IMG/VR virus record: IMGVR_UViG_3300035698_005240
Span: 1 to 52,332 of that record
Strand: one strand, 5' to 3'
DNA from: a virus
DNA: 52,332 bases
The notes under the pieces are model-generated. The model ran no database searches. It worked only from the letters and a program-made list of their open reading frames with translations, and had not been told where the DNA came from. Position 1 is the first letter of the stretch. Each line of letters opens with the position of its first letter. The translations under genes were made by a program, and so were the position numbers. Positions 24,853 through 47,678 of this stretch are shown piece by piece.

Positions 24853-24911
24853 GAATTATTAACCACATGTGTAACTTTAAACCGAACTAAATTTAGCTTA
24901 TCGGCGCAGCA

Positions 24912-24942
24912 TAAAAAACGGGAGCTTATTAGGGCTCCCGTT
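24912..24942 (-). terminator. terminator of the tmRNA locus
   Basis: AACGGGAGC and GCTCCCGTT form a 9-bp stem followed by TTTTTT on the - strand. It ends the coding piece of the permuted tmRNA. Confidence 0.9.
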
Positions 24943-25106
24943 AGTACTATTGATAATCAGGCGTTACCCTGAGGGAGATTATGCAGCTAGTGCAGTCTCA
25001 CCAAACGTTTCATCGTTTGCGGTTATAACATTCTTCGCGGTTAAGGTCGCTTAGATCACCTATTCTCCACTTCACTATTCCCGTCCGTCGAATCCTGATC
25101 GCCCCC
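24943..25106 (-). ncRNA. ssrA: circularly permuted tmRNA, coding (5') piece
   Basis: The 5' end at 25106 begins GGGGGCG then ATCAGGATTCGACGG, the conserved tmRNA 5' end and D-loop. A pseudoknot-like AGGT/ACCT plus GCG/CGC segment precedes the tag. The tag frame at 25020-24979 reads ANDETFGETALAA and stops with TAA; resume codon GCA. A TCAGG/CCTGA hairpin (24972-24957) and the terminator follow. The 3' acceptor half is not downstream but upstream in the same transcript, so the gene is permuted and would be processed to two RNAs. With SmpB it would free stalled ribosomes and tag proteins for proteolysis. Confidence 0.92.
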
Positions 25107-25187
25107 TTCAAAAATACTCTAACCAGACTTTAACTGGTGTTAGCTTTAGGTTTCCCTAAGCTAAGGTGCCTTACACTAGAGTACTTA
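25107..25187 (-). other. internal transcribed spacer of the permuted tmRNA
   Basis: 81 nt between the acceptor CCA and the coding-piece G1. It folds on paper into a closing TACTCTA/TAGAGTA stem enclosing two hairpins: TTAGCTTAGG-GAAA-CCTAAAGCTAA (one bulge) and CCAG/CTGG. It must be removed for CCA charging; the structure may guide RNase P and 3' nucleases. Confidence 0.75.
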
Positions 25188-25243
25188 TGGTGGAGGCGGC
25201 TGGAATCGAACCAGCGTCCGTCCGATCTTCATGTTGCTTCATC
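25188..25243 (-). ncRNA. ssrA: circularly permuted tmRNA, acceptor (3') piece
   Basis: Ends GCCGCCTCCACCA with encoded CCA at 25190-25188. The T-arm GCTGG-TTCGATT-CCAGC (25215-25199) is perfect. CGCCTCC (25198-25192) pairs over 7 bp, with one G-U, to GGGGGCG at the 5' end of the coding piece 80 nt downstream. Upstream CGGAC matches the segment before the T-arm in bacterial tmRNA. No anticodon arm is present. Its 5' boundary is not defined by sequence; the HNH stop codon is at 25244-25242. Confidence 0.9.
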
Positions 25244-25604
25244 AAATTCTATCGTGGGTTATTGCATGGCAATTAGCACACAGTATTACACATAATTTTA
25301 TTTCTTTGGTCAAGCTCTCCACACTTCTGGTAGTACCACTAGAAATCTCGAAATTCTTTTCTTTTGTAATATGATGAAACTGTAGTGCCGCAAAATTATC
25401 GTCATAACCACAATTTGTACATTCCATAAGTCTGCCTAAAGAGCGCACTATCTCATCTAATCTTTTTCTATACTGAGCTTTTGTCTGCGACATAGTACAA
25501 GGCTTACAGTTGGGTTTATATTTTTTAGTCCCTTTAGGCGTATAACCGTTAGAGAAAAACTCTGTAAGCTCTTTTTCTGTGTCACATTTATTACAAATTT
25601 TCAT
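25242..25604 (-). CDS. HNH endonuclease abutting the tmRNA
   Basis: 120 residues. N-terminal CNKCDTEKEL and CKPCTMS zinc ligands; the HNH core is CTNCGYDDNFAALQFHHI with CANCHAITHD at the end. Free-standing HNH genes of this type are mobile in phages. Its last codons touch the tmRNA acceptor piece, so the two are transcribed together. Its start overlaps a 15-codon frame described at 25591-25638. Confidence 0.88.
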   Translation of the reverse strand: MKICNKCDTEKELTEFFSNGYTPKGTKKYKPNCKPCTMSQTKAQYRKRLDEIVRSLGRLMECTNCGYDDNFAALQFHHITKEKNFEISSGTTRSVESLTKEIKLCVILCANCHAITHDRI

Positions 25605-25638
25605 CGAATTCTAGTTTCTCCAGCTCTTCTTCTGTCAT
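25591..25638 (-). pseudogene. 15-codon frame cut short at the HNH start, possible gene remnant
   Basis: ATG overlaps the upstream stop as ATGA, the coupling used by real genes here, but the frame ends after 15 codons (MTEEELEKLEFDENL). The HNH ATG lies within its last codons. It may be the front of a gene broken by arrival of the HNH/tmRNA segment, or simply a coupling leader. Confidence 0.35.
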
Positions 25639-26204
25639 TCTATCCACCAGTTGGGAGCGCCTCTCTTAGTCCATACTGCTATATGAGATTTATCAAGTTG
25701 ATAATATAGACGATATGCTTCTATCGGGTCTTCCTGTTTATATTCATCTGGCATTGACATACCAAAAGGAGTTAGGTTAGGTTCATCTAGGTCGTATGGG
25801 ATTGGCATTTCTCGTAGCACTTCCATAGATTTGTGTGGCTTAAAGCCTCTATAGAGTGCCTCGGTTTGCATAGCTTCAGTAAGCTCGATTAGCCACTCCC
25901 AATTAGATAAACTTGAGCGTACCCATATACAACTAGGATGGTTGATGCCAAAAGGTAAATATTCAGCAGGAAAGCCTTCTGCGATTCTAGTTCCAAGGGG
26001 CACATACCTAGCAGCGGTTGCCAAGTCACGCACTTTTTTAGACTCAGCCGGAGTCAGGAATCTAGGTATGTACCCCAATATGTCTGTTACCCACTTAGAG
26101 GTACATAACAACTGAGCGGATTCTAAAATCATTTTGGTAACGTGCTTGTCCATATGTGCTTGAGCGCACTTGGTTATATCATTATCTAATACAAATATGT
26201 TCAT
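25635..26204 (-). CDS. conserved phage protein (FVLDND..DKHVTKM family), unknown function
   Basis: 189 residues. It begins MNIFVLDNDITKCAQAHMDK and HVTKMILESAQLL, with HPSCIWVRSSLSNWEWL in the middle and GFKPHKS further on. This conserved His/Trp-rich pattern is common in phages and has been loosely annotated as DNA glycosylase-like; I do not assign an activity. Confidence 0.8.
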   Translation of the reverse strand: MNIFVLDNDITKCAQAHMDKHVTKMILESAQLLCTSKWVTDILGYIPRFLTPAESKKVRDLATAARYVPLGTRIAEGFPAEYLPFGINHPSCIWVRSSLSNWEWLIELTEAMQTEALYRGFKPHKSMEVLREMPIPYDLDEPNLTPFGMSMPDEYKQEDPIEAYRLYYQLDKSHIAVWTKRGAPNWWIE

Positions 26205-26230: not shown

Positions 26231-26259
26231 ATTATAACAATAATTAAGATACTTGTCAA
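26231..26259 (-). promoter_or_regulatory. sigma-70 promoter driving 26204 to the tmRNA
   Basis: TTGACA, 17 bp, TATAAT on the - strand. It is the nearest promoter upstream of the HNH gene and the tmRNA, which probably come from this transcript. Confidence 0.87.
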
Positions 26260-26456: not shown

Positions 26457-26533
26457 TGGGGTGACCGGAGGGACTCGAACCCTCGTCATGCCGAAGTCAC
26501 AGTTCGGGACTCTACCTGTTGAGTTACGGCCAC
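26457..26533 (-). tRNA. tRNA-His(GTG)
   Basis: Acceptor GTGGCCG/CGGTCAC, anticodon stem CCGAA/TTCGG with loop CTGTGAC, T-loop TTCGAGT. Discriminator C and CCA are encoded. The base before position 1 is T, so the G-1 expected of tRNA-His is not encoded. Confidence 0.93.
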
Positions 26534-26536
26534 ATA

Positions 26537-26640
26537 AAAACACTCTACTTCCGGGCTACGCGGCCAATGTACTAGTGATCTGCTAATACACTCAGAGTGT
26601 TTGTATCTGGTCATAAGTACCCGCAACTTAAGGCGGCGGG
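26537..26640 (-). ncRNA. structured RNA candidate between tRNA-Ser and tRNA-His
   Basis: On the - strand CCCGC/GCGGG forms a hairpin, and AAACACTCT pairs over 9 bp with AGAGTGTTT about 50 nt later. ACACTC can instead pair with the adjacent GAGTGT, giving two exclusive folds. It may be a tRNA processing spacer or a riboregulator. No open frame of note. Confidence 0.4.
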
Positions 26641-26657
26641 ACGGCCATTCCAGGGTT

Positions 26658-26747
26658 TGGAGGAAGATAGAGGAGTCGAACCCCTGCCGCTACTAACGAC
26701 ACGACGGTATTCAACACCGTTTGCCAGCCTACCCAGCCGTATCTTCC
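26658..26747 (-). tRNA. tRNA-Ser(TGA)
   Basis: Acceptor GGAAGAT/ATCTTCC, anticodon stem ACGGT/ACCGT with loop GTTGAAT, long variable arm, T-loop TTCGACT, encoded CCA. Confidence 0.92.
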
Positions 26748-26884
26748 GTAAAGTTTAGTTTGTTAAAGTACTTAGTTACTGTTTCCAGCAGTACTAGTTT
26801 TTCTGAAGAGGGTAGCTCGTTATCTGAGGCGAACTCCATCAAGTCTATAGTCATCTCGTCGTATACTTCTTGGTTCGTCATCAT
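26729..26884 (-). CDS. small acidic protein ending inside tRNA-Ser
   Basis: 51 residues, MMTNQEVYDEMT at the start, helical. AAGGAA precedes the double ATG. Its last six codons and stop lie within the 5' end of tRNA-Ser (26747-26729), so translation and tRNA processing compete on one transcript. Function unknown. Confidence 0.65.
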   Translation of the reverse strand: MMTNQEVYDEMTIDLMEFASDNELPSSEKLVLLETVTKYFNKLNFTEDTAG

Positions 26885-26893
26885 ACAAGTTCC

Positions 26894-27031
26894 TTAAATT
26901 TTCTCTATCTTGTGCATAATTTCACCTGTCAGCTCTAGAATATAAAGGAAAGAGTCTAGAATGTCGGAAGTTTCGCAAATTTCTACGTTTGTTTTGTTGG
27001 CTTTTCGGTTGTGGTAATAAACTTTGTACAT
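26894..27031 (-). CDS. small hypothetical protein
   Basis: 45 residues from the ATG at 27031 (MYKVYYHNRKANKTNV), ten bases behind GGAG. The frame is open upstream through the promoter and tRNA-like element, which cannot be coding. Function unknown. Confidence 0.6.
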   Translation of the reverse strand: MYKVYYHNRKANKTNVEICETSDILDSFLYILELTGEIMHKIEKI

Positions 27032-27058
27032 TTCATGTTTCTCCGCATTTGAAAAACC

Positions 27059-27087
27059 ATTATACACCCGTTGAGACCCCGCGTCAA
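27059..27087 (-). promoter_or_regulatory. sigma-70 promoter for the 27031-26265 unit
   Basis: TTGACG, 17 bp, TATAAT on the - strand; drives two small genes, tRNA-Ser, tRNA-His and beyond. The flanks CATTTGAAAAACC and ACCCGTTG recur at 31920-31945. Confidence 0.85.
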
Positions 27088-27101
27088 GGGTTAAATAAGC
27101 T

Positions 27102-27157
27102 GTCGGGCTTAAGGAATCGAACCTCTTGCTATAGCTTGCTACCACACATAGCCCGAC
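27102..27157 (-). other. tRNA-like element without anticodon arm
   Basis: 56 nt. A perfect 7-bp acceptor (GTCGGGC/GCCCGAC), a D-arm-like GTGTGGTAGCA and a T-loop TTCGATT, but only about 10 nt between D- and T-arms, so no anticodon arm, and no CCA. Either a deletion relic or a minimal processing signal. Confidence 0.55.
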
Positions 27158-27229
27158 ATAAAATTGTGGGACAGGGTTCTTTGTCAACAGAAGAGCCTCT
27201 CCAAGCTGGTTGTCAGCTATCGCGCGATT

Positions 27230-27303
27230 TGGTACTCAGTAAAGGATTCGAGCCTTTGTCTTCGGTATGTAAGACCGACGTTCTACCATTGAACTAACCG
27301 AGC
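27230..27303 (-). tRNA. tRNA-Val(TAC)
   Basis: Acceptor GCTCGGT/ACTGAGT (two G-U), anticodon stem TCGGT/ACCGA with loop CTTACAT, T-loop CTCGAAT, encoded CCA. Confidence 0.92.
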
Positions 27304-27311
27304 ATTAAAAT

Positions 27312-27389
27312 TGGAACTGGGAGTGAGATTCGAACTCACGTACATGACGGGTTGCAATCGCCTACCTAACCAGACTCGGCCATCCCAGC
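27312..27389 (-). tRNA. tRNA-Cys(GCA)
   Basis: Acceptor GCTGGGA/TCCCAGT, anticodon loop TTGCAAC on a GGCGA/CCGTC stem with one A-C mismatch at the top, T-arm GTGAG-TTCGAAT-CTCAC, encoded CCA. Confidence 0.85.
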
Positions 27390-27390
27390 A

Positions 27391-27630
27391 TTAAAAACCT
27401 CCGTGACACCAGCGAATGTCTCCGCTAGTCTTATCTATCCAAACCATATACTTAGCAGCGTTTGCTTCGCCCATCATATGTTTCGGTATTAACTTTATTT
27501 CTGCTCTAGCAGAAGTTACAGATGCCTCTACACGAACAGGCATTCTATGTATTGCTACTCTTTGTTTTATTAATAATAAAACGTCTTCCACTTTTTCTTT
27601 GAAGTCCTGCTTTATTGAGTCTGTAATCAT
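27391..27630 (-). CDS. hypothetical protein, 79 residues
   Basis: A helical N-terminal half and a beta-rich C-terminal half (KYMVWIDKTSGDIRWCHGGF). It overlaps the next gene up by one base (TAATG) and is two bases from tRNA-Cys. Not recognised. Confidence 0.65.
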   Translation of the reverse strand: MITDSIKQDFKEKVEDVLLLIKQRVAIHRMPVRVEASVTSARAEIKLIPKHMMGEANAAKYMVWIDKTSGDIRWCHGGF

Positions 27631-27908
27631 TAAAAGTAAGTTCCTGATATAACTACTAACTCACATAAGCTGTCTTCGTGGTATATGGCAAAACCCCCAG
27701 AAAACTCTAACTTTACGTCTTCGTTAGCAAATTCATCAAAGAGCACGATATCTGCAATTACCTTGAATCCTTCCCCTCTTATATTTGTAGCTGTCCCTAT
27801 TTCTTTGGACTGATCGTATCCGTAAACTACAGATAGATTACCACTGTGTCCCATCATATACCCTAGTTTTTCTACATCGTTAGGTATGTGTATCGTGAAA
27901 GTTGTCAA
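27630..27908 (-). CDS. hypothetical protein, 92 residues
   Basis: Beta-rich (TFTIHIPNDVEKLGYMMGH at the start, FAIYHEDSLCELVVISGTYF at the end). Co-translated with 27391-27630. The start sits directly behind tRNA-Arg. Not recognised. Confidence 0.65.
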   Translation of the reverse strand: MTTFTIHIPNDVEKLGYMMGHSGNLSVVYGYDQSKEIGTATNIRGEGFKVIADIVLFDEFANEDVKLEFSGGFAIYHEDSLCELVVISGTYF

Positions 27909-27910
27909 TT

Positions 27911-27982
27911 TGGTACTCCCGGAGGGACTCGAACCCCCAACTGCTGCCTTCGTAGGGCTGCTCCCATCCAGTTGGCGAGAGT
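27911..27982 (-). tRNA. tRNA-Arg(ACG)
   Basis: Acceptor ACTCTCG/CGGGAGT, anticodon stem CAGCC/GGCAG (one A-A mismatch) with loop CTACGAA, T-loop TTCGAGT, encoded CCA. A34 implies TadA editing to inosine. Confidence 0.88.
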
Positions 27983-27986
27983 GTTA

Positions 27987-28319
27987 TTAGTATATATCTG
28001 ACCAGATTCCTTTACGATACTTCTCTGGGCCGGATTCAAAGTAATCAAAATCTTCGTAATCTTCGGAGGTATACAGCTTTTGTCTTAGGTCTCTGGCACT
28101 TCTTCTTCTTTTTCGGCTGACTCGGTTAAAATACCATTGATGGCTTCTATAAGAGTAGCCACCGTGTCCTGCTCCTGAATCACTATAAGCTATAGCCAGC
28201 TCTTTTTTAGTAGGGGTCACTCTTACTATGTGATAAGTATACCCATAGCCTGTGTTTACTAGGTCTGTGTTTAAGAGATACTCTCGTGTTTCATCTATCT
28301 TTCTAACGGTTTTTGACAT
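27987..28319 (-). CDS. hypothetical protein, 110 residues, basic middle
   Basis: RVSRKRRRSARDLRQK near residue 70 and an aromatic-rich tail (YEDFDYFESGPEKYRKG). GGAG lies close before the ATG. Possibly nucleic-acid binding; not recognised. Confidence 0.65.
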   Translation of the reverse strand: MSKTVRKIDETREYLLNTDLVNTGYGYTYHIVRVTPTKKELAIAYSDSGAGHGGYSYRSHQWYFNRVSRKRRRSARDLRQKLYTSEDYEDFDYFESGPEKYRKGIWSDIY

Positions 28320-28369
28320 ATTATGTTCTCCTTTTTCAATTCAACATAATAATATCTCCTTTAATATAG

Positions 28370-28450
28370 TGGTGCTGGCAGACGGAATCGAACCCCCTTC
28401 TGAGCATTACAAAAGCCCTGCATCGGCTTTTCGCCCGTTCTGTATCCTTA
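28370..28450 (-). other. degenerate tRNA-like sequence (3' half only)
   Basis: An encoded CCA, discriminator A, acceptor 3' strand TGCCAGC and T-loop TTCGATT are present, with a T-stem holding one G-G mismatch. A TTTGTAA loop would give a Thr anticodon (TGT), but AAAAGCC/GGCTTTT forms a stronger competing hairpin. I find no 5' acceptor strand nearby, so I do not call a functional tRNA. Confidence 0.4.
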
Positions 28451-28476
28451 AACTATATACTACTTAAACAAAATTA

Positions 28477-28591
28477 AGGGAATGATCTGTCGGGGACATT
28501 GTGTTCTTACCCCACTATTGTCTCATTCTGGTTACGTCAGGACTTGTTAAAGCCGGTTTGTGCCAGAGCCTAGTCACGCAGATCATTCCCT
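28477..28591 (-). ncRNA. structured RNA closed by a perfect 13-bp stem
   Basis: AGGGAATGATCTG (28477-28489) is perfectly complementary to CAGATCATTCCCT (28579-28591). Inside, on the - strand, TCTGG/CCAGA and GGGG/CCCC make further helices, giving a branched fold of about 115 nt. It is the first element after the promoter at 28622-28650. No open frame. Confidence 0.6.
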
Positions 28592-28621
28592 AAATTTTGC
28601 TTTTCTTGATTTTATAAAGCT

Positions 28622-28650
28622 ATTATACGTTGATTTTAGCATTTTAGCAA
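28622..28650 (-). promoter_or_regulatory. promoter copy A (TTGCTA-17-TATAAT)
   Basis: TATAAT with a weaker -35 (TTGCTA), 17 bp apart, on the - strand. About 48 bp around it are identical to promoter copy B at 29047-29075. Confidence 0.75.
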
Positions 28651-28674
28651 GAAGTTTTTTGAACTTTTTAAATA

Positions 28675-28783
28675 TGGTGGTTTGGGAAGGATTCGAACCT
28701 CCATAGCCTGTAAAGGCCGGAGGGGTACCTCACACACTTCACGCGTGTGTCCTCCTTGACTCGCCAGCATTATCAGCCGCACC
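28675..28783 (-). other. aberrant Tyr-like tRNA element with enlarged anticodon region
   Basis: 109 nt. The 3' end (GGAGG-TTCGAAT-CCTTC, CCAAACC, A, CCA) resembles tRNA-Tyr. The 5' strand GGTGCGG pairs at five of seven positions. Where the anticodon arm should be there is a GGAGG/CCTCC helix carrying an internal ACACAC/GTGTGT hairpin. No usable anticodon loop. An intact tRNA-Tyr is at 31296-31381. Confidence 0.45.
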
Positions 28784-28789
28784 ATAAAG

Positions 28790-28863
28790 TGGTACTCAGT
28801 AGTGGTAACGATCCACTGTCTTGCGGTTATCAACCGCATGCTCTACCATTGAGCTAACCGAGC
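28790..28863 (-). tRNA. tRNA-Ile(GAT)
   Basis: Acceptor GCTCGGT/ACTGAGT, D-arm TAGCTCAATGGTAGAGC, anticodon stem TGCGG/CCGCA with loop TTGATAA, encoded CCA. The T-loop reads ATCGTTA rather than TTCRANN, which is unusual. Confidence 0.88.
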
Positions 28864-28867
28864 ATGA

Positions 28868-29035
28868 ATTTTCAAGATACTCACACGGAGCATATCAGAG
28901 ACGTCTTGAGTGGCCTCTTACGTATTTGAGGTGCTCACCCTTTCGAGTATCTCCATCGACTTTCTGCAGCGGTTCCTAGCTTTGGTCCGGCTTACCCAGT
29001 TTCGATGTGAAAAACTTTTGTACTCTTTTTTCCAA
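28868..29035 (-). ncRNA. structured RNA leader upstream of tRNA-Ile
   Basis: On the - strand AGATACTC pairs with GAGTATCT across about 60 nt, CATCGA pairs with TCGATG, and CCTC/GAGG nests inside. It fills the space between promoter copy B and tRNA-Ile and has no open frame. Confidence 0.5.
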
Positions 29036-29046
29036 CTTAGAAACCT

Positions 29047-29075
29047 ATTATACGTTGATTTTAGCATTTTAGCAA
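29047..29075 (-). promoter_or_regulatory. promoter copy B (TTGCTA-17-TATAAT)
   Basis: Identical to copy A at 28622-28650 including flanks. It would transcribe the 28868-29035 RNA, tRNA-Ile and what follows. Confidence 0.75.
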
Positions 29076-29097
29076 GAAGTTTTTTGAACTTTTGATT

Positions 29098-29171
29098 TGG
29101 AGCAGTGGAAGGGAGTCGAACCCTTGTCTCTACGTTGGCAACGTAGCGTTGAGCCTCTCAACTACCTCTGC
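29098..29171 (-). tRNA. tRNA-Gly(GCC)
   Basis: Acceptor GCAGAGG/CCACTGC with one A-A mismatch, anticodon stem CTACG/CGTAG with loop TTGCCAA, T-loop TTCGACT, encoded CCA. Confidence 0.9.
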
Positions 29172-29177
29172 ATAATT

Positions 29178-29254
29178 TGGTCCGAGATGTGAGATTCGAA
29201 CTCACGGCCCCTCCGTCCCAAACGGAGTGCGCTATCAGGCTGCGCTAATCTTGG
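29178..29254 (-). tRNA. tRNA-Pro(TGG)
   Basis: Acceptor CCAAGAT/ATCTCGG (one A-C mismatch), anticodon stem CTCCG/CGGAG with loop TTTGGGA, T-loop TTCGAAT, encoded CCA. The cupin gene upstream ends inside its 5' strand. Confidence 0.9.
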
Positions 29255-29655
29255 TTAAACTGGTTTACTTTAGTAACCTTTCTGCCATTCGTTAAGGTAC
29301 TAACAGTATTCTTATCTTTATCTACTTCTCTCCACTCGGAAGACCACGGGCCTCTAACTGTAAAGCACCAGCTATCTTTAAAAGCTGTAACTCTGTGGTT
29401 TGTAGTTCTTTTAGTAACTTTAGGCATCAGGAACCTGTCATATTGATAAAAGTCTCCTGTGTCGCAGTCTTCTTCTATTAAGTCTCCTGATACTAGCCAC
29501 GTTAACGCATTGAAGGCGTGAGTGTGAAACTGCTCTCTTCTTCCTTTGTGGAACTTCAAAAGTGCTATAGAAAATACACTCTTCCATTCAACTAGGAAGT
29601 AGGCATCTACCGGAGACTCTTGGCCCCCATCTTTAACTTTTGATAGTATTCTCAT
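29245..29655 (-). CDS. cupin-like phage protein
   Basis: 136 residues. FHTHAFNALTWLVSGDLIEE supplies the HxH of a cupin metal site; ILSKVKDGGQESPV, MPKVTKRTTNHRV and WCFTVRGPW are conserved in the phage family. It is probably a small metal-binding beta-barrel; substrate unknown. The stop lies within tRNA-Pro, and the start overlaps the upstream stop (ATGA). Confidence 0.85.
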   Translation of the reverse strand: MRILSKVKDGGQESPVDAYFLVEWKSVFSIALLKFHKGRREQFHTHAFNALTWLVSGDLIEEDCDTGDFYQYDRFLMPKVTKRTTNHRVTAFKDSWCFTVRGPWSSEWREVDKDKNTVSTLTNGRKVTKVNQFNQD

Positions 29656-29807
29656 CGTGTAGCTCTACGTTTGATTTTAGACTCTAGAACGTCTCTTGAT
29701 ATATTGTGCATGTCCTGCCAAGTAACAGCTTCTGAGTAGCTAGAACATGGTTTAATCGTCCAGGTTCCTGGGTTGTGTCCTAGCCTGTACATTACTATAT
29801 AGTTCAC
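29652..29807 (-). CDS. small basic protein, GTG start
   Basis: 51 residues (MNYIVMYRLGHNPGTW...). GTG at 29807 overlaps the previous TAG and lies seven bases behind GGAG; an internal ATG is the alternative. Basic C-terminus KIKRRATR. Unknown function. Confidence 0.6.
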   Translation of the reverse strand: MNYIVMYRLGHNPGTWTIKPCSSYSEAVTWQDMHNISRDVLESKIKRRATR

Positions 29808-30013
29808 TAATAATCTCCATCTTGGTGATATAATATTACTGCTGTCTCTTTTATCTTTTTTATCAATATCTTTTCAGGAGTCTCGTGCAAGTCCTCCAAA
29901 AATACCCAGCACTGTGCAGAAGCGGCTGCTATAGCACATTGCTTATTTTTAGCTCGTAGGATTATTACTCCTCCAATCGAAACTCCTGGGAATGTTATTT
30001 TGTATGTTTTCAA
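29807..30013 (-). CDS. small protein translated from a site inside tRNA-Leu
   Basis: 68 residues from a TTG at 30013. The ribosome site AGGAG is the acceptor 3' strand of tRNA-Leu(TAA), seven bases upstream, so the message must retain the tRNA end. Residues 10-35 include a hydrophobic stretch (GVSIGGVIILRA). Unknown function. Confidence 0.55.
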   Translation of the reverse strand: MKTYKITFPGVSIGGVIILRAKNKQCAIAAASAQCWVFLEDLHETPEKILIKKIKETAVILYHQDGDY

Positions 30014-30015
30014 TC

Positions 30016-30098
30016 TGGTACTCCTAGTGGGATTCGAACCCACATGACTATGTCGTTACGTTTTAAGCGTAGTGTGTATGCCGTTCCACCATAGGAGC
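30016..30098 (-). tRNA. tRNA-Leu(TAA)
   Basis: Acceptor GCTCCTA/TAGGAGT, anticodon loop CTTAAAA on a TACG/CGTA stem, long variable arm, T-arm GTGGG-TTCGAAT-CCCAC, encoded CCA. Confidence 0.9.
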
Positions 30099-30099
30099 A

Positions 30100-30390
30100 T
30101 TATTTGCTGGCTTCTATAGCCTCTTTAAACCACTCCTGTTTTTCTAATAAAGTAGCTTTCCTAAGGGGTCGTACTGTACCGAAGGGAGCCCCCTTATCAT
30201 AATGGTACTCTATATCTATAAATGTCGTACCGAATTTTTCGCGTACTCCTTCGAAGCCTTCTATAACCTGCATAAACAAGGCTATTTTAAAGTTGCGGGC
30301 ATCTACTATGTAGACTTCTTTATCTACTAAGTCTTCGTATGCTATGAAGTTGCCTTCTCTGCCTTTGAGCCACAAATCGTGGTATTCCAT
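30100..30390 (-). CDS. hypothetical protein, 96 residues
   Basis: Starts MEYHDLWLKGREGNF; central EVYIVDARNFKIALFMQV and VREKFGTTFIDIEY suggest an alpha/beta fold. The ATG at 30390 is chosen because the open frame upstream runs through tRNA-Gln. Not recognised. Confidence 0.65.
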   Translation of the reverse strand: MEYHDLWLKGREGNFIAYEDLVDKEVYIVDARNFKIALFMQVIEGFEGVREKFGTTFIDIEYHYDKGAPFGTVRPLRKATLLEKQEWFKEAIEASK

Positions 30391-30408
30391 TATAATATCC
30401 CGTAAATT

Positions 30409-30487
30409 TGGAAGCCCCTGAGAGAATCGAACTCTTATACTGACGAGGTTCAAAGCCTCGCGCCGGAACCATCCAGCTACAGGAGCA
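30409..30487 (-). tRNA. tRNA-Gln(TTG)
   Basis: Anticodon stem CGAGG/CCTCG with loop CTTTGAA, T-loop TTCGATT, encoded CCA. Position 1 is T facing T72, a weak first pair like the U1-A72 of other tRNA-Gln. Confidence 0.88.
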
Positions 30488-30499
30488 ATTATTAGTCGG

Positions 30500-30660
30500 C
30501 TAAGCGTTTTACTGCGCCGTGATCTTGGAAGCCGTTCCAACTTGACCACCGTGTTAATTAGTACAGCCTTAGGTTCCAAAGTCTGTATAAGTGAGGGTCC
30601 TAGACCGGCTTATGGCTCATTTATCTTATACAGTGCTGTAATGCTTCGTTTAGGTACTTA
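30500..30660 (-). ncRNA. structured RNA candidate between tRNA-like elements and tRNA-Gln
   Basis: CTGTATAAG (30583-30591) is perfectly complementary to CTTATACAG (30625-30633), enclosing TGAG/CTCA and GGTC/GACC helices. No open frame of note in this 180-bp gap. Confidence 0.5.
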
Positions 30661-30670
30661 GTACATAAAT

Positions 30671-30728
30671 TGGGGGTAAGTTATTGGAATCGAACCAAAT
30701 CTGCTACTGCCCTACCACTGGGCCATAC
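30671..30728 (-). other. tRNA-like element without anticodon arm (copy 1)
   Basis: 58 nt with D-arm GGCCCAGTGGTAGGGC, then only AGTAGCAGA before a T-arm with loop TTCGATT. The acceptor strands match at four of seven positions; a CCA is present. Near-copy of 30731-30786. Confidence 0.5.
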
Positions 30729-30730
30729 AT

Positions 30731-30786
30731 GAATCATGCTGCTGGAATCGAACCAGCTCTTCTACTGCCCTACCACTGGGCCAACT
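30731..30786 (-). other. tRNA-like element without anticodon arm (copy 2)
   Basis: The same D-arm as copy 1, AGTAGAAGA as the only linker, and a perfect T-arm GCTGG-TTCGATT-CCAGC. No matching acceptor strands and no CCA. The shared deletion of the anticodon arm shows duplication after, or selection for, the shortened form. Confidence 0.5.
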
Positions 30787-30796
30787 CACCATTGTT

Positions 30797-30880
30797 TGGT
30801 ACTCCTAGAGAGATTCGAACTCTCAATCCCTTCGGCCCTGATTTCTAAAACCAGTGTGTATACCATTCCACCACAGGAGC
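30797..30880 (-). tRNA. tRNA-Leu(TAG)
   Basis: Acceptor GCTCCTG/TAGGAGT, anticodon stem CTGGT/ATCAG with loop TTTAGAA, long variable arm, T-arm GAGAG-TTCGAAT-CTCTC, encoded CCA. Confidence 0.92.
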
Positions 30881-30885
30881 ATTAA

Positions 30886-31098
30886 TTATCCAAAACTTCT
30901 TCGGGCGTCTGCTTCGTTATCAAAAAGCCTGCAACCCCAATAAGTTAATTTTTCTTTTTTGTAAAAATTTTTGTGGTCTTTAAATTTTTCGTCACATGCA
31001 GCTTGAAAACTTTCTGCTGTGACGGTTCCGCACCACGTAGCATTACTTACTTGCCCTGTAGATATAAAGCCTTCACTCCATATTTCGTATTGCTGCAT
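30886..31098 (-). CDS. small conserved phage protein (YEIWSEGF family)
   Basis: 70 residues, MQQYEIWSEGFISTGQ then AESFQAACDEKF and a Trp/Cys-containing end. This pattern is common in small proteins of large lytic phages. Function unknown. Confidence 0.75.
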   Translation of the reverse strand: MQQYEIWSEGFISTGQVSNATWCGTVTAESFQAACDEKFKDHKNFYKKEKLTYWGCRLFDNEADARRSFG

Positions 31099-31099
31099 A

Positions 31100-31290
31100 A
31101 AATTACCTAAAGTATAATTAGACTAGGACTTACGTTACTTTTATTCGCCTCACAGTTACTTTTGTTCACTGCCTAGGGTCTGTTCTTTACCTACCGCCAT
31201 TATAGTCCGATGCGGTCGTCGCTCCCGATCAACGGGTTAGTATCTAGGAAGGTTTTTAATCCTTCTATCGCTTACGCGCCACCTACTAGA
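31100..31290 (-). ncRNA. structured RNA candidate upstream of tRNA-Tyr
   Basis: A 190-bp gap without genes. The - strand has hairpins GAAGG/CCTTC, CCCG/CGGG, GCG/CGC and CAGT/ACTG, and AGACCCTAGG can pair with CCTAGTCT (one bulge). No promoter of the usual type is seen. Confidence 0.4.
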
Positions 31291-31295
31291 GTAAT

Positions 31296-31381
31296 TGGTG
31301 AGGAGAGTAGGAATCGAACCTACCGTGTCCGAAGACTGGCGGGTTACAGCCGCCTTGCGCACCTTGCTAATCGTTCTCCCC
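31296..31381 (-). tRNA. tRNA-Tyr(GTA)
   Basis: Acceptor GGGGAGA/TCTCCTC, anticodon stem GGCGG/CCGCC with loop CTGTAAC, long variable arm, T-arm GTAGG-TTCGATT-CCTAC, encoded CCA. Confidence 0.94.
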
Positions 31382-31386
31382 GTGGT

Positions 31387-31686
31387 TTAGTAATATATTC
31401 CTGTTCCGAAAGCGTAAAGCTCACAGTTTGGGAACAGTTCCATCAATGTTTCTGCTTCGAGCTTTGTTATCTCTCTAATGGTAAAGTCTTTTAGCAGCTC
31501 GGACATGCCGACATAAAATATGTCTTCATTAGAGCCAAAGCCGAACGCTACTTCGTCATTATCGCTATGCTCAAACTCTTCTTTGAAGTTAGCTAGAGCA
31601 TTTGCCCACTGTGCTTCTGTCATTAAACGAAATGAGTTACAATCAAACTCGTCTGAGTAGTTACCTTCAAACTTTACTAAGAGCAT
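31387..31686 (-). CDS. small conserved acidic protein
   Basis: 99 residues; MLLVKFEGNYSDEFD at the start, EVAFGFGSNEDIF and a C-terminal CELYAFGTGIYY. Alpha/beta composition; the family is known to me only as hypothetical phage protein. It overlaps the next gene by 10 bp. Confidence 0.7.
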   Translation of the reverse strand: MLLVKFEGNYSDEFDCNSFRLMTEAQWANALANFKEEFEHSDNDEVAFGFGSNEDIFYVGMSELLKDFTIREITKLEAETLMELFPNCELYAFGTGIYY

Positions 31687-31904
31687 TTCAACTCCTTTTT
31701 TAAATCTAGGGCTATCTGCTCTCCAGCGAAGTATTCATAAACGTATAATAGTGCTTTAAACTCTTTCTTCGCTTCTTTAATATCTTTCTTGTAATAAAAC
31801 TTTTTAGCATGTACTAATTCTTGGTATGATAGTTTTATATTAAGTTTTAGTTCTTCACAAATTATATGGTCCACAGAAGCGTCTGTGATTGTTGCTGATG
31901 TCAT
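31677..31904 (-). CDS. small helical protein
   Basis: 75 residues, lysine/glutamate rich (AKKFYYKKDIKEAKKEFK). First gene after the promoter at 31932-31960. Function unknown. Confidence 0.65.
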   Translation of the reverse strand: MTSATITDASVDHIICEELKLNIKLSYQELVHAKKFYYKKDIKEAKKEFKALLYVYEYFAGEQIALDLKKELKCS

Positions 31905-31931
31905 TTTTTATTTCTCCGCATTTGAAAAACC

Positions 31932-31960
31932 ATTATACACCCGTTGCGATTGTTTGTCAA
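31932..31960 (-). promoter_or_regulatory. sigma-70 promoter for 31904 and below
   Basis: TTGACA, 17 bp, TATAAT on the - strand, between tRNA-Asn and the 31677-31904 gene. Confidence 0.88.
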
Positions 31961-31982
31961 GAACTAAATGACTTTCCTTATT

Positions 31983-32059
31983 TGGCTAGTAGCAGAGGAC
32001 TCGAACCTCCCACGTCCTGGTTAACAGCCAGGTGCCCCCACCTGGAGGGCCCGCTACCA
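31983..32059 (-). tRNA. tRNA-Asn(GTT)
   Basis: Acceptor TGGTAGC/GCTACTA, anticodon stem CCTGG/CCAGG with loop CTGTTAA, T-loop TTCGAGT, discriminator G, encoded CCA. Confidence 0.93.
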
Positions 32060-32079
32060 ATTAATTGTATTCATAAATT

Positions 32080-32155
32080 TGGTGGAACTGAAGGGAGTCG
32101 AACCCTCAACCTTCTCCTTGCAAAAGAGGTGCACTCCCAGTTGTGCTACAGCCCC
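32080..32155 (-). tRNA. tRNA-Ala(TGC)
   Basis: Acceptor GGGGCTG/CAGTTCC, anticodon loop TTTGCAA on a CCTCT/GGAGA stem (one mismatch), T-arm GAGGG-TTCGACT-CCCTT, encoded CCA. Confidence 0.88.
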
Positions 32156-32161
32156 AAATTC

Positions 32162-32314
32162 TTATTCTATCGTGTTTCTTATTAGGTCAAACTTTTCTGC
32201 TACTAACGCATCTATTTGCTGTTGTAGATCGGATATAGCTACGCTTAATGGTACTAAAGAGTGTACATCCATAGTTTTTGCCTGTTCACCTACCTTCTCT
32301 AATTCGTCAAACAT
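32162..32314 (-). CDS. small helical protein
   Basis: 50 residues, MFDELEKVGEQAKTMD and a coiled-coil-like LQQQIDALVAEKFDLI. GGAG precedes the ATG. It lies behind a terminator, so it depends on readthrough. Unknown function. Confidence 0.65.
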   Translation of the reverse strand: MFDELEKVGEQAKTMDVHSLVPLSVAISDLQQQIDALVAEKFDLIRNTIE

Positions 32315-32331
32315 TAATTTCTCCGATAAAA

Positions 32332-32358
32332 AAACCCGAGGTTTTGAGGCTCGGGTTT
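32332..32358 (-). terminator. intrinsic terminator after the 32389-32481 gene
   Basis: AAACCCGAG and CTCGGGTTT form a 9-bp stem with a 9-base loop, then TTTT on the - strand. Confidence 0.88.
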
Positions 32359-32388
32359 ATTGTTGATTAAGACATAAAGACTCTTACT

Positions 32389-32481
32389 TCAAACAAACAC
32401 CCTTTTTAAGCCAAGCTGATTCGCAAGCCCAATATACAAGGGGGCCGGTTGATTGCTTGGTAATGTCGCTTGAGTATTCAT
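32389..32481 (-). CDS. 30-residue peptide gene
   Basis: MNTQATLPSNQPAPLY then IGLANQLGLKRVFV. AAGGA lies seven bases before the ATG. It has its own promoter and terminator, making a compact one-gene unit. An overlapping frame ending YWACESAWLKKGVCLK lacks a canonical start and is the alternative reading. Confidence 0.5.
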   Translation of the reverse strand: MNTQATLPSNQPAPLYIGLANQLGLKRVFV

Positions 32482-32525
32482 TTTTAAATCCTTAAATCCT
32501 TGGTGTTTCTTAAGTTTATGAAGCT

Positions 32526-32554
32526 ATTATACGCACATTTGACCATACTGTCAA
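32526..32554 (-). promoter_or_regulatory. sigma-70 promoter for the 30-residue peptide unit
   Basis: TTGACA, 17 bp, TATAAT on the - strand; shares the flank TTTATGAAGCTATTATACG with promoters at 34412, 46074 and 47710. Confidence 0.88.
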
Positions 32555-32563
32555 GAAGTATTT

Positions 32564-33022
32564 TTAGGTGGGGAGGTCATAAATAGTAACATCGAAGCCT
32601 GCCAGAGCACTAGAGATTATACCCTGAACTACTTTCCAATCACCTCCTCCTCTGCCACATCCTATTCTAGGCATACCTATTTTTATTATTTCCAGCCCCT
32701 GTAAGGTATCGCCCATACAGAGAAGAGCTGAAAACATAGCTCTATAATCTGTATACTGAGTTGGGCCTTTTCCGTACCTATACTGAGAATAGAGGTTAAA
32801 TACCATACCACAGCGTACAAGAGCCTGTGTTGTAGTACCTAGTTTAGAGATATCGCCTTTGGTAGTTGCAGCATCAACCTCCCTTACTCCAGGAAAAGCG
32901 TTTGCAATTTGAGGCGCTATACCAGACTGCATAGTATTGAAACAATTAGTCTGGTGTGCTATAACATTAACTTCGCCTGCTAGGAAGGCATCAATTAAGT
33001 TTCCTTCTATATATTTAAGCAT
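32564..33022 (-). CDS. macro-domain (ADP-ribose-binding) protein
   Basis: 152 residues from the ATG at 33022 (MLKYIEGNLIDAF). VNVIAHQTNCFNTMQSGIAP forms the ADP-ribose pocket, IKIGMPRIGCGRGGGDW the phosphate loop. It resembles poly- or mono-ADP-ribose hydrolases/Appr-1p phosphatases. It may remove ADP-ribose placed by host defence or phage enzymes, or process tRNA-splicing-type phosphates; the substrate is not shown. Confidence 0.85.
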   Translation of the reverse strand: MLKYIEGNLIDAFLAGEVNVIAHQTNCFNTMQSGIAPQIANAFPGVREVDAATTKGDISKLGTTTQALVRCGMVFNLYSQYRYGKGPTQYTDYRAMFSALLCMGDTLQGLEIIKIGMPRIGCGRGGGDWKVVQGIISSALAGFDVTIYDLPT

Positions 33023-33091
33023 CTTCTGGGGTATCCGTATTAAAAGAACCTCTCCATAGCCCGAAGGAAAGAGGGAGAGGTTGTGTTTGTT

Positions 33092-33168
33092 TGGCAAGTC
33101 GTGAGGGAATCGAACCCCCGTTGCAGGCGTTTGGAGTGCCGCGTGTTTCCATTTTTCACTAACAACTC
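33092..33168 (-). tRNA. tRNA-Trp(CCA)
   Basis: Acceptor GAGTTGT/ACGACTT, D-arm GTGAAAAATGGAAACAC, anticodon loop CTCCAAA (stem imperfect at both ends), T-arm GGGGG-TTCGATT-CCCTC, discriminator G, encoded CCA. Confidence 0.85.
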
Positions 33169-33178
33169 ATTGATTTTA

Positions 33179-33685
33179 CTAGGCTGCGTTTTGTTCTCGT
33201 AGAACGCGGTCCAGCCGGTCTGCGGTAAAGGAAGCTGCGAATGCATCAGGTTTGGCTAGAGGCATAACATTAATTGTACCCATTACCATACCGATAGCAG
33301 CTTTCAAGGCACAAGAGCTGCCTTCGCTTTCTTTAGGATTAATATCTAGGTGAACCTCTGGCTCGAAACCATACTCTACCATGATGTCTTCTGTACGCTG
33401 GTACATTTCGATAGCTTGAGTAGTCTCTCGAATCATGCGATTAAAGGGCTTGTTTAGCCGCTCTACAGGGGCAGGTTCACGGAGAACTTCTCCGAATACT
33501 TTACACCCGTGGCAACCATCAATGTGAACTACAATAGCTACGCAGTATTCTACAACATCAACTCCGCGTACTCTAAAACACTCTGAATCTGACCCGATGT
33601 ATACTTTAGTTTCAGGCGAGCAAGTGCTAAGAAAGCTTTCTAGCTCCCTAGTTTTTAATGGTCGTCTTAGTTCTGATGTAGACAT
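33179..33685 (-). CDS. RNase H-like protein (YkuK/DUF458 type)
   Basis: 168 residues. KVYIGSDSEC near residue 28, YCVAIVVHIDGCHGCKVFG and LDINPKESEGSS follow the DUF458 (YkuK) pattern, an RNase H-like fold. The acidic residues D33, D35 and D115 could be catalytic. Role unknown. Stop codon of the upstream small gene overlaps its ATG. Confidence 0.8.
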   Translation of the reverse strand: MSTSELRRPLKTRELESFLSTCSPETKVYIGSDSECFRVRGVDVVEYCVAIVVHIDGCHGCKVFGEVLREPAPVERLNKPFNRMIRETTQAIEMYQRTEDIMVEYGFEPEVHLDINPKESEGSSCALKAAIGMVMGTINVMPLAKPDAFAASFTADRLDRVLREQNAA

Positions 33686-33861
33686 TATTTTAACTCCAGC
33701 TCTACGATTTCGGCATAGAGATGCGCTGATTTATCATTTTCGTTCTTTTGTCGCTGTATTTTTAAAGCGGCAAGTGCCTGCTTTTCATCACTGTATAAGC
33801 CTGCATTACCATACGGGCCTTCATAAATGTTTCCGTACTCTACTAAATAAACTTTCGGCAT
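33685..33861 (-). CDS. small protein, 58 residues
   Basis: MPKVYLVEYGNIYEGPYG then a helical SDEKQALAALKIQRQK. Stop overlaps the next start (TAATG). The opening xVYLVEYGxIYEG pattern is shared with small phage proteins of unknown role. Confidence 0.7.
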   Translation of the reverse strand: MPKVYLVEYGNIYEGPYGNAGLYSDEKQALAALKIQRQKNENDKSAHLYAEIVELELK

Positions 33862-33875
33862 TATAATAGCTTATT

Positions 33876-33962
33876 TGGAGGAAGATGAGGGGGTTGAACC
33901 CTCGTACCCTTTCGAGCGCCTCTAATTAGCAATCAGGCACATTACCACTCTGTCAATCTTCC
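33876..33962 (-). tRNA. tRNA-Ser(GCT)
   Basis: Acceptor GGAAGAT/ATCTTCC, anticodon loop TTGCTAA, long variable arm, T-arm GAGGG-TTCAACC-CCCTC, encoded CCA. Confidence 0.88.
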
Positions 33963-34033
33963 GTTAATTTTGTACCGCCATTAAAGTCCCTAGGCGGAGT
34001 TGTGGACTACTCATCCCGAGAAGGAGAGAGGTT

Positions 34034-34108
34034 TGGAACGGATTAGGGGACTCGAACCCCTGACGAACTGGGTGGAAACCAGACACTCTGCCGCTGAGCT
34101 AAACCCGC
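34034..34108 (-). tRNA. tRNA-Gly(TCC)
   Basis: Acceptor GCGGGTT/AATCCGT, D-arm TAGCTCAGCGGCAGAGT, anticodon stem CTGG/CCAG with loop TTTCCAC, T-arm AGGGG-TTCGAGT-CCCCT, encoded CCA. A CCGCC/GGCGG hairpin lies in the gap behind it (33973-33997). Confidence 0.93.
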
Positions 34109-44881: not shown

Positions 44882-44958
44882 TGGTACCCCGAGAAGGATT
44901 CGAACCTTCGATCAATGAGTTAAAAGCTCACTGCTTTAGACCACTAAGCTACCGAGGC
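44882..44958 (-). tRNA. tRNA-Lys(TTT)
   Basis: Acceptor GCCTCGG/TCGGGGT (G-U rich), anticodon stem GTGAG/CTCAT with loop CTTTTAA, T-arm GAAGG-TTCGAAT-CCTTC, encoded CCA. The upstream gene ends inside it. Confidence 0.93.
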
Positions 44959-45113
44959 ATTAAAACTCTTTTGTGTTTCTGTACTATCTTTACCCATAAA
45001 GCATCAAGTTCTTGGTAGGACTCTTTTAGAAGTTCAAGTGCTTCCACTGTTTCTTCTATAGTGTAATCTTTCCCAGGCTTTGCTAGTAGCTCTTGAATTC
45101 TTTGATGGTTCAT
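44949..45113 (-). CDS. small helical protein ending inside tRNA-Lys
   Basis: 54 residues, MNHQRIQELLAKPGK and EEELLK-type helices (VEALELLKESYQELDALW). Its last codons ATG-CCT-CGG-TAG are the 5' end of tRNA-Lys. Unknown function. Confidence 0.65.
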   Translation of the reverse strand: MNHQRIQELLAKPGKDYTIEETVEALELLKESYQELDALWVKIVQKHKRVLMPR

Positions 45114-45137
45114 TATGGTTCCTTGATAGAAATAGAA

Positions 45138-45228
45138 TTAGTTTGATGAGTCTGCATACTCCTGCGTCAACAGGAGGCATCGCACGTTGACGCGCACAGG
45201 CCTTTTATAGGCCATCCCATCAAACTAA
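45138..45228 (-). ncRNA. pseudoknotted RNA closed by an 11-bp stem
   Basis: TTAGTTTGATG (45138-45148) pairs perfectly with CATCAAACTAA (45218-45228). Inside, CTCCT/AGGAG makes a hairpin whose eight-base loop GCGTCAAC (45164-45171) is the exact complement of GTTGACGC (45186-45193), so a pseudoknot is expected. A GGCCT/AGGCC hairpin completes it. Lies between tRNA-Glu and the 44949 gene; no open frame. Confidence 0.65.
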
Positions 45229-45231
45229 ATT

Positions 45232-45309
45232 TGGTACCCTAGACGAGGTTCGAACTTGCAATCGCCGCAGTGAAAGTGCAGTGCCTTAGTCCAGTTTGGC
45301 CACTAGGAT
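45232..45309 (-). tRNA. tRNA-Glu(TTC)
   Basis: Acceptor ATCCTAG/CTAGGGT, anticodon stem CTGCA/TGCGG with loop CTTTCAC, T-loop TTCGAAC (stem with one mismatch), encoded CCA. Confidence 0.88.
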
Positions 45310-45318
45310 GTTGTTTGG

Positions 45319-45492
45319 TTATTCAAAGCTGTCGATTTGATCTTCGGTAGCTTCTGACACTGATACGCTTACGCTTTCACATGCTGCCGCGTGAAATTCC
45401 GAATATACTTCATCAGGGTTATCACTTTCTACTATGTCATAACTTTCTGTGCCACAGTAGCCCATGTCTGTCTTTACTAAATATTTAGTCAT
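45319..45492 (-). CDS. small acidic protein, tandem paralogue of 45492-45716
   Basis: 57 residues, MTKYLVKTDMGYCGTESYDI and ESDNPDEVYSE, then a Ser/Val-rich acidic end. The gene just upstream has the same opening. Overlap TAATG. Unknown function. Confidence 0.65.
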   Translation of the reverse strand: MTKYLVKTDMGYCGTESYDIVESDNPDEVYSEFHAAACESVSVSVSEATEDQIDSFE

Positions 45493-45716
45493 TACTCAAA
45501 TTCCTTTAGTTCGCCTTCTGTGGCTTCTACCACATTGATTCGTATGCTATCAATAGCTTCTGATACTGATAGGTCTAACGCTAAAGCCACTCTCACAGCT
45601 ATTCCTGTGGATATAGCTAGTGCCTGTGAATATACTTCATCTACATTGTCGCTTTCTACAATGCGATACGCTTCTCCACTTCTATGCCCCATATCTGTAA
45701 TGACTAAATACTTCAT
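45492..45716 (-). CDS. small acidic protein, tandem paralogue of 45319-45492
   Basis: 74 residues from ATG 45716 (MKYLVITDMGHRSGEAYRIV, ESDNVDEVYSQ). A longer open frame upstream crosses tRNA-Asp and is not used. Unknown function. Confidence 0.65.
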   Translation of the reverse strand: MKYLVITDMGHRSGEAYRIVESDNVDEVYSQALAISTGIAVRVALALDLSVSEAIDSIRINVVEATEGELKEFE

Positions 45717-45732
45717 TTTAGTACCTTTTGTT

Positions 45733-45807
45733 TGGCGAGAGTAACGGGATTCGAACCCGCAGCCTGAAGGTAGACAACCCACTGCACAACCGTTGTGCTT
45801 CACTCCC
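45733..45807 (-). tRNA. tRNA-Asp(GTC)
   Basis: Acceptor GGGAGTG/TACTCTC, anticodon loop TTGTCTA (stem with one T-T mismatch), T-arm GCGGG-TTCGAAT-CCCGT, discriminator G, encoded CCA. Confidence 0.88.
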
Positions 45808-47228: not shown

Positions 47229-47678
47229 CTAGAAATCTATGCCATCATCCTGCTTGACTGTAGGCACACTTTGATCTGCTGTTAGCATCGCTTTTGCACG
47301 CTCGACTTTATCTGTAACTGCGTCCTGCTTAGCCTGCTCTACTTGGGCAGGGTCTGCTGCGGGTACGAGAGCATCTACTAAACGCTGTAGGTCAGCTTTA
47401 CCAGCCTTGCTAAGAGTAGGAATCTCGATATCTAGGTGATCTTCGATAGCTTTCACTAGGTCACTTTTAGACACAATCTCTGCACCGCTTTTAGTGGTAC
47501 GAGGCTTTGCGATGTATACTTTCTCACGAGATAACTTCGCGATGATAGAACGAGTAGTCTTGCCCATGTCGTCTGCAATCTTTTTAACTGTATCCGCATT
47601 AGGATTTTCAGTGTAAAGAGCGACCATAGATTTAACTTGCTCATCTGTGTAATTAACTACTTTCTTTGCAATTGCCAT
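47229..47678 (-). CDS. Myb/HTH-like DNA-binding protein, paralogue of 21860-22219
   Basis: 149 residues. YTDEQVKSMVALY, TVKKIADDMGKTTRSIIAKLSREKVY is the DNA-binding module; SKSDLVKAIEDHLDIEIPTL and on form the second domain, followed by an acidic tail ending DDGIDF. Its own promoter lies upstream. Probably an abundant early DNA-binding protein. Confidence 0.78.
   Translation of the reverse strand: MAIAKKVVNYTDEQVKSMVALYTENPNADTVKKIADDMGKTTRSIIAKLSREKVYIAKPRTTKSGAEIVSKSDLVKAIEDHLDIEIPTLSKAGKADLQRLVDALVPAADPAQVEQAKQDAVTDKVERAKAMLTADQSVPTVKQDDGIDF

Follow-up and report, generated by a model that had tools for sequence, protein, structure and literature searches.

The permuted tmRNA locus

A circularly permuted tmRNA gene lies on the minus strand at positions 25250-24943 of the linear IMG/VR record IMGVR_UViG_3300035698_005240. 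This record is a 52-kb fragment of a T5-like phage, and its entire 52,332 nucleotides are called the window here. A tmRNA rescues stalled ribosomes and marks the incomplete protein for degradation with a tag, and the two-piece type is a rare, rearranged form of this RNA. The gene consists of an acceptor piece, an 81-nucleotide linker and a coding piece, in that order. The features of the locus, all on the minus strand, are as follows.

26231..26259, minus: sigma-70 promoter with a perfect consensus (TTGACA-17-TATAAT, extended by TG), where the unit probably begins; recognized by consensus match only
25635..26204, minus: DNA-binding protein ORF (phrog_624), in the same presumed unit as the HNH ORF and the tmRNA
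25242..25604, minus: HNH endonuclease ORF (phrog_2255, E 4e-35), whose stop codon abuts the acceptor piece
25188..25250, minus: acceptor piece (tRNA-like 3' half), starting with the clade motif ATTYGATGAAG; 5' end approximate (sequence, ARAGORN, Rfam)
25199..25215, minus: T-arm GCTGG-TTCGATT-CCAGC (sequence; T-stem covariation in relatives)
25188..25198, minus: 3' strand of the acceptor stem, CGCCTCC, with discriminator A (25191) and encoded CCA (25190-25188) (sequence, covariation)
25107..25187, minus: intervening 81-nt segment with a closing helix and three hairpins, predicted to be excised (folding)
24943..25106, minus: coding piece with a putative 3' end; RNase P is predicted to cut at its 5' end, GGGGGCG (sequence, ARAGORN, Rfam)
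25085..25099, minus: D-loop region ATCAGGATTCGACGG, without a D stem (sequence, Rfam)
25044..25061, minus: probable PK1 stem 1 (AGGU/ACCU), stem 2 uncertain (sequence reading and alignment of relatives)
24979..25020, minus: tag frame ANDETFGETALAA-stop, with the resume context TAACC just before it (ARAGORN, comparison of tags)
24917..24942, minus: intrinsic terminator, a 9-bp stem and then a T run (sequence)

A sequence-only reading had proposed a two-piece tmRNA at this site, and two programs agree. ARAGORN calls a permuted tmRNA at 24888-25280 on the minus strand, and the Rfam model RF04321 (tmRNA_permuted) matches with 93.8 bits (E 6e-17; curated cut-off 47 bits) over model positions 1-213, which is the full model including the coding piece. 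The betaproteobacterial model RF01850 (beta_tmRNA) also matches at full length, with 71.7 bits (E 1e-21), under its curated cut-off of 84 bits. The positions that the reading had assigned to the encoded CCA and the GGGGGCG start are exact base for base, and the tag with its TAA and the 7-bp acceptor stem are present as it described them.

The acceptor stem is formed across the two pieces by GGGGGCG (25106-25100) and CGCCTCC (25198-25192). It includes the pair G3-U70 (25104/25194), which is the alanine signal for alanyl-tRNA synthetase (AlaRS). Both a T-arm with a TTCRA-type loop and a D-loop of the form GG.TTCGAC lacking a D stem are present. The tag frame reads GCA AAC GAT GAA ACG TTT GGT GAG ACT GCA CTA GCT GCA TAA (25020-24979), and has the resume context and a hydrophobic, LAA-type end.

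The tmRNA looks like the last gene of a short unit, predicted from the DNA to run from the promoter through the genes for the DNA-binding protein and the HNH endonuclease to the terminator. A second perfect sigma-70 promoter, likewise a consensus match only, is located beyond the terminator at 24852-24824. The tmRNA region adjoins a block of tRNA genes. ARAGORN finds 18 tRNA genes in the window, at 26457-34108 and 44882-45807, and these are interspersed with small ORFs in a T5-like arrangement.

The assignment to a T5-like phage, also made from sequence alone, is upheld by homologues of T5-like replication genes and by their order: the D5 regulator, DNA polymerase, primase, helicases, an NAD-dependent ligase and an SbcC-like protein. 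The DNA polymerase is only about 45% identical to the closest ones of cultured T5-like phages, so the phage represents a distant, uncultivated T5-like (Demerecviridae-like) branch. Neither the tmRNA locus nor the left 25 kb of the window has DNA similarity to cultured phages.

Folding and covariation of the two pieces

The acceptor stem is recovered without constraints, both when the two pieces are cofolded and when the whole precursor is folded. The precursor as a whole folds with a z-score of -4.5, and the linker folds at -27.1 kcal/mol (z -3.5), a value reached by none of 200 shuffled sequences. For the complete pair of pieces, cofolding gives no significant result (z -1.4).

Eight distinct T5-like sequences were used for covariation analysis; the sequence of contig L080, which has an odd T-arm, was omitted from this set and included in a separate analysis of the T stem. 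Pairing in the acceptor and T stems of these eight reaches 95.8% (77.4 on average after shuffling), and 17 cells are altered on both sides in a compensatory manner, compared with a shuffled mean of 6.0 and with no value as high in 500 shuffles. Within the acceptor stem, pairing is 100%, and G3-U70 is invariant. Because these stems covary among relatives and the linker folds at the z-score given above, the match exceeds what is expected by chance.

The long-range P2 helix, which helps to keep the two pieces of such a tmRNA joined, is weak in the window. Its predicted energy of -10.6 kcal/mol ranks sixth of ten against non-cognate partners, and the Rfam alignment flags several of its pairs as non-standard. 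P2 is clear in several relatives, in which cognate pieces average -15.9 kcal/mol versus -11.6 kcal/mol for mixed pairs. The poorly formed P2 modelled for the window is the main structural reservation. As to PK1, stem 1 is likely from reading the sequence and stem 2 is weak; RNAalifold returned no PK1 stem on ten T5-like coding pieces.

The weak P2 would also fit a decoy, that is, a phage RNA that binds host SmpB or AlaRS and damps the host tmRNA while performing no trans-translation itself, a role that has been proposed for the RNA of mycobacteriophage DS6A. A phage RNA consisting of little beyond the tRNA-like domain does exist, and a molecule of that type acts as a tmRNA inhibitor in E. coli (PMC4131195; PMC11915505). 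The DS6A domain is similarly phage-borne and tmRNA-derived, but it has no tag, whereas the RNA in the window has one (PMC4131195). A decoy would not need a tag frame, a resume context, a stop codon or an LAA or IAA end, yet all of these are kept in 11 of 11 T5-like tmRNAs (including a one-piece tmRNA in L071). We therefore regard a decoy as unlikely, and a working tmRNA as the preferred reading.

A tmRNA lineage in an environmental T5-like clade

Hundreds of IMG/VR contigs encode relatives of the window's DNA polymerase; the best are 72-75% identical. When about 194 T5-like contigs were scanned with RF04321, many of them too short or without the region, a permuted tmRNA scored over the cut-off in nine (L070, L080, L094, L102, L134, L146, L428, L466 and L469). 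Thus, the locus is no isolated case: a permuted tmRNA is carried by ten contigs, the window included, of a single environmental T5-like clade. A permuted tmRNA found by pattern in L061 was set aside, as that contig is not T5-like.

The window is a single metagenomic contig, as might raise the suspicion of a bacterial ssrA fused to phage sequence, but such an assembly or binning error is strongly disfavoured by the nine other contigs, one of them (L466; stretches L503-L508, G455) a 101-kb contig with overlapping ends, and by a tmRNA tree in which the closest relatives of the window's RNA come from other T5-like contigs and not from the bacteria included.

The four contigs tested (L070, L094, L102 and L146) are all syntenic with the window in gene content. 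In L070, L094 and L146, the tmRNA is found 4-8 kb upstream of the ligase gene, inside or bordering the tRNA/HNH region. In L102, it is further upstream of the ligase and has as its neighbour a gene homologous to the one at 47229 in the window. The position of the tmRNA gene thus moves. In the L102 tmRNA (L238), the CCA is separated from the 5' GGGGGAG by 4 nt (CGAT); the linkers of the bacterial permuted tmRNAs L379 and L409 are also 4 nt long. ARAGORN found no tRNA gene in the stretches of L466 that were read.

One further member of the clade, L071, carries a tmRNA in the same genome region but in the standard, one-piece form (RF00023, 98 bits), with the tag ADSQVEYALAA and an odd T-loop. The T-arm loops of L071 (L239:1227-1561) and L080 (L360) are GGCAGCA and GGCGGCT instead of TTCRA, and the bacterial tmRNAs L379 and L409 have an GGGGGCGGTACCC arm that resembles these odd T-arms. 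The idea that L080 and L071 are sisters between which the form switched was rejected; it is based on the shared odd T-arm, and the coding piece alone gives no support.

Neither form of tmRNA scores over the cut-off in any of 15 cultured T5-like phages, whose hosts include Aeromonas, Vibrio, Proteus, Serratia, Klebsiella, Pectobacterium, Escherichia, Salmonella and Enterobacter. Likewise, in most long contigs of the clade no permuted tmRNA reaches the cut-off, which implies that the gene is dispensable. Among Gammaproteobacteria, permuted tmRNAs are rare, with two of 229 genomes over the cut-off, and one of the two (L380) is a one-piece tmRNA according to ARAGORN.

The tree of tmRNAs places the window in one group with L094, L102, L134, L466 and L469 (support 95/99). 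Deeper branches are poorly supported, and L428 has a long branch of uncertain placement. A tree of five phage proteins contains the same pairs as the tmRNA tree (L070 with L146, L102 with L134, and L466 with L469). These phages are well diverged, as the five proteins are 42-74% identical to those of the window. The mostly matching trees indicate that the gene came down mainly by descent in the phage lineage, not by repeated acquisition.

The patchy presence of the gene across the clade and its differing site within a variable tRNA/HNH region are what might be expected of a passenger, a captured host gene that is decaying and has no function in the phage. However, the compensatory changes, the LAA or IAA tag ends, an intact terminator and the tmRNA tree that mostly follows the phage tree indicate that the gene is old and has been selectively maintained over a long time. 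A decaying passenger thus seems at least as unlikely as the decoy, and a functional tmRNA again accounts better for the conservation.

Diverse tags and proposed function

The tags of the T5-like tmRNAs vary from 10 to 28 residues, and all eleven end in LAA or IAA; three of the tags were read by eye. They include ANDETFGETALAA in the window and ANDSVYSLAA, ANDDVYQLAA, GNDDIYDIAA, ANDDIYALAA, ANDDIYTTAIAA and ANDDNYYQEMALAA elsewhere. L070, L146 and L080 have unusually long tags that start with Asp; one has 26 residues and the other two have 28. The tags of L070 and L146 are clearly related and keep the end FDDD.DFAM..ALAA.

Among 84,980 bacterial and archaeal species, none has an exact copy of the ANDETFGETALAA tag in its genome. 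A relaxed tag pattern matched 116 stretches, and all 80 among the matches listed are titled Pseudomonas. In these 80 of the 116 stretches, ARAGORN finds one-piece tmRNAs with the tags ANDETYGEYALAA (60), ANDETYGEQALAA (10) and ANDETYGDYALAA (5). In a comparison made post hoc, the window tag is identical to Pseudomonas ANDETYGEYALAA at 11 of 13 residues. It is identical at 12 of 13 to ANDETYGETALAA, the tag of a one-piece tmRNA in an IMG/VR element. The GET that the sequence-only reading had singled out as an unusual insertion is therefore no oddity, as the tag is simply Pseudomonas-like.

Despite its similar tag, the Pseudomonas tmRNA is a one-piece RNA that is not close in the tmRNA tree. The idea that the RNA in the window arose by recent permutation of a Pseudomonas tmRNA was rejected, since this RNA groups with T5-like tmRNAs, and the likeness of the tags must then reflect either host matching or chance. 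Perhaps the tag of this two-piece phage RNA was drawn towards that of a Pseudomonas-type host with a one-piece tmRNA, so that the phage would take over tagging and still be recognizable to the host's ClpXP and the adaptors of ClpXP, although we consider this doubtful. The C-terminal half of a tail-fibre-like protein (window 1481-3286) is 54% identical to a phage protein from a spring metagenome. Its other matches, in phages of Xanthomonas, Stutzerimonas and Pseudomonas, are weak, and the tail fibre is not decisive for the host.

The gene with its boundaries, acceptor and T stems and tag can be read from the DNA, as can its conservation, and these features make it probable that the phage encodes a working two-piece tmRNA. 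We infer that it is transcribed, cut, charged and used with SmpB, and that ribosome rescue benefits the phage. The gene would be transcribed last in the short unit, from the host-type promoter (26259-26231) to the terminator (24942-24917). In the precursor, the linker and the acceptor stem would join in one extended helix. Host RNase P would cleave just ahead of G25106, and the CCA at 25188 would be freed by the host enzymes that process tRNA 3' ends. The products would be a coding RNA of about 165 nt and, paired with it, an acceptor RNA some 55-65 nt long. The RNA would be charged with alanine by host AlaRS through G3-U70. No SmpB was found in 19 phage records, or by tblastn in the 101-kb relative, so host SmpB and ClpXP would serve. 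SmpB would deliver the RNA to ribosomes stalled on broken or stopless mRNAs during infection, translation would restart at GCA (25020), ANDETFGETALAA would be appended and the ribosome released, and ClpXP would degrade the product through its C-terminal ALAA. Judging from the role of tmRNA, the benefit is probably that ribosomes are kept free during a fast lytic burst, when phage and host nucleases cut mRNAs. Ribosomes might also be kept free under RNA-cutting defences.

Two-piece tmRNAs have been described in phages before. The Methylophilales phage Melnitz carries one, and in a survey, 402 phages yielded 133 unique tmRNAs, 53 of them two-piece according to ARAGORN, of which 50 came from marine or aquatic samples (PMC9004378). 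A 2025 database holds 79 unique phage tmRNAs (PMC11915505). Like the phage in the window, Melnitz and related marine phages are aquatic and have a complete permuted ssrA with the acceptor piece before the coding piece (PMC9004378). Melnitz differs in being a myophage whose tmRNA is of the alphaproteobacterial type and in having a predicted glutamine riboswitch, whereas the window is T5-like, is closest among older models to the betaproteobacterial one, and contains no riboswitch detectable with Rfam. The betaproteobacterial RNAs (RF01850; merged model RF04321) share the order of the pieces, the tRNA domain and the tag context. However, the window's RNA scores below the RF01850 cut-off and belongs to a separate group, and most T5-like tmRNAs carry a common GGAGAAT.GG element.

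The sequence-only reading knew of no such gene in this phage group. No report of a tmRNA in T5-like phages was found in the literature, with subscription journals mostly outside coverage, and the cultured T5-like phages agree with this part of the claim. Because a two-piece phage tmRNA was already published (PMC9004378), the kind is not new, and the phage lineage is. Phage-borne two-piece tmRNA is thereby extended to an environmental T5-like clade, as a largely inherited lineage with varied tags and one one-piece relative. With its own tmRNA lineage and diverse tags, this clade opens two questions to testing: what makes a lytic phage retain a ribosome-rescue RNA of its own, and whether the tags adapt to host proteases.
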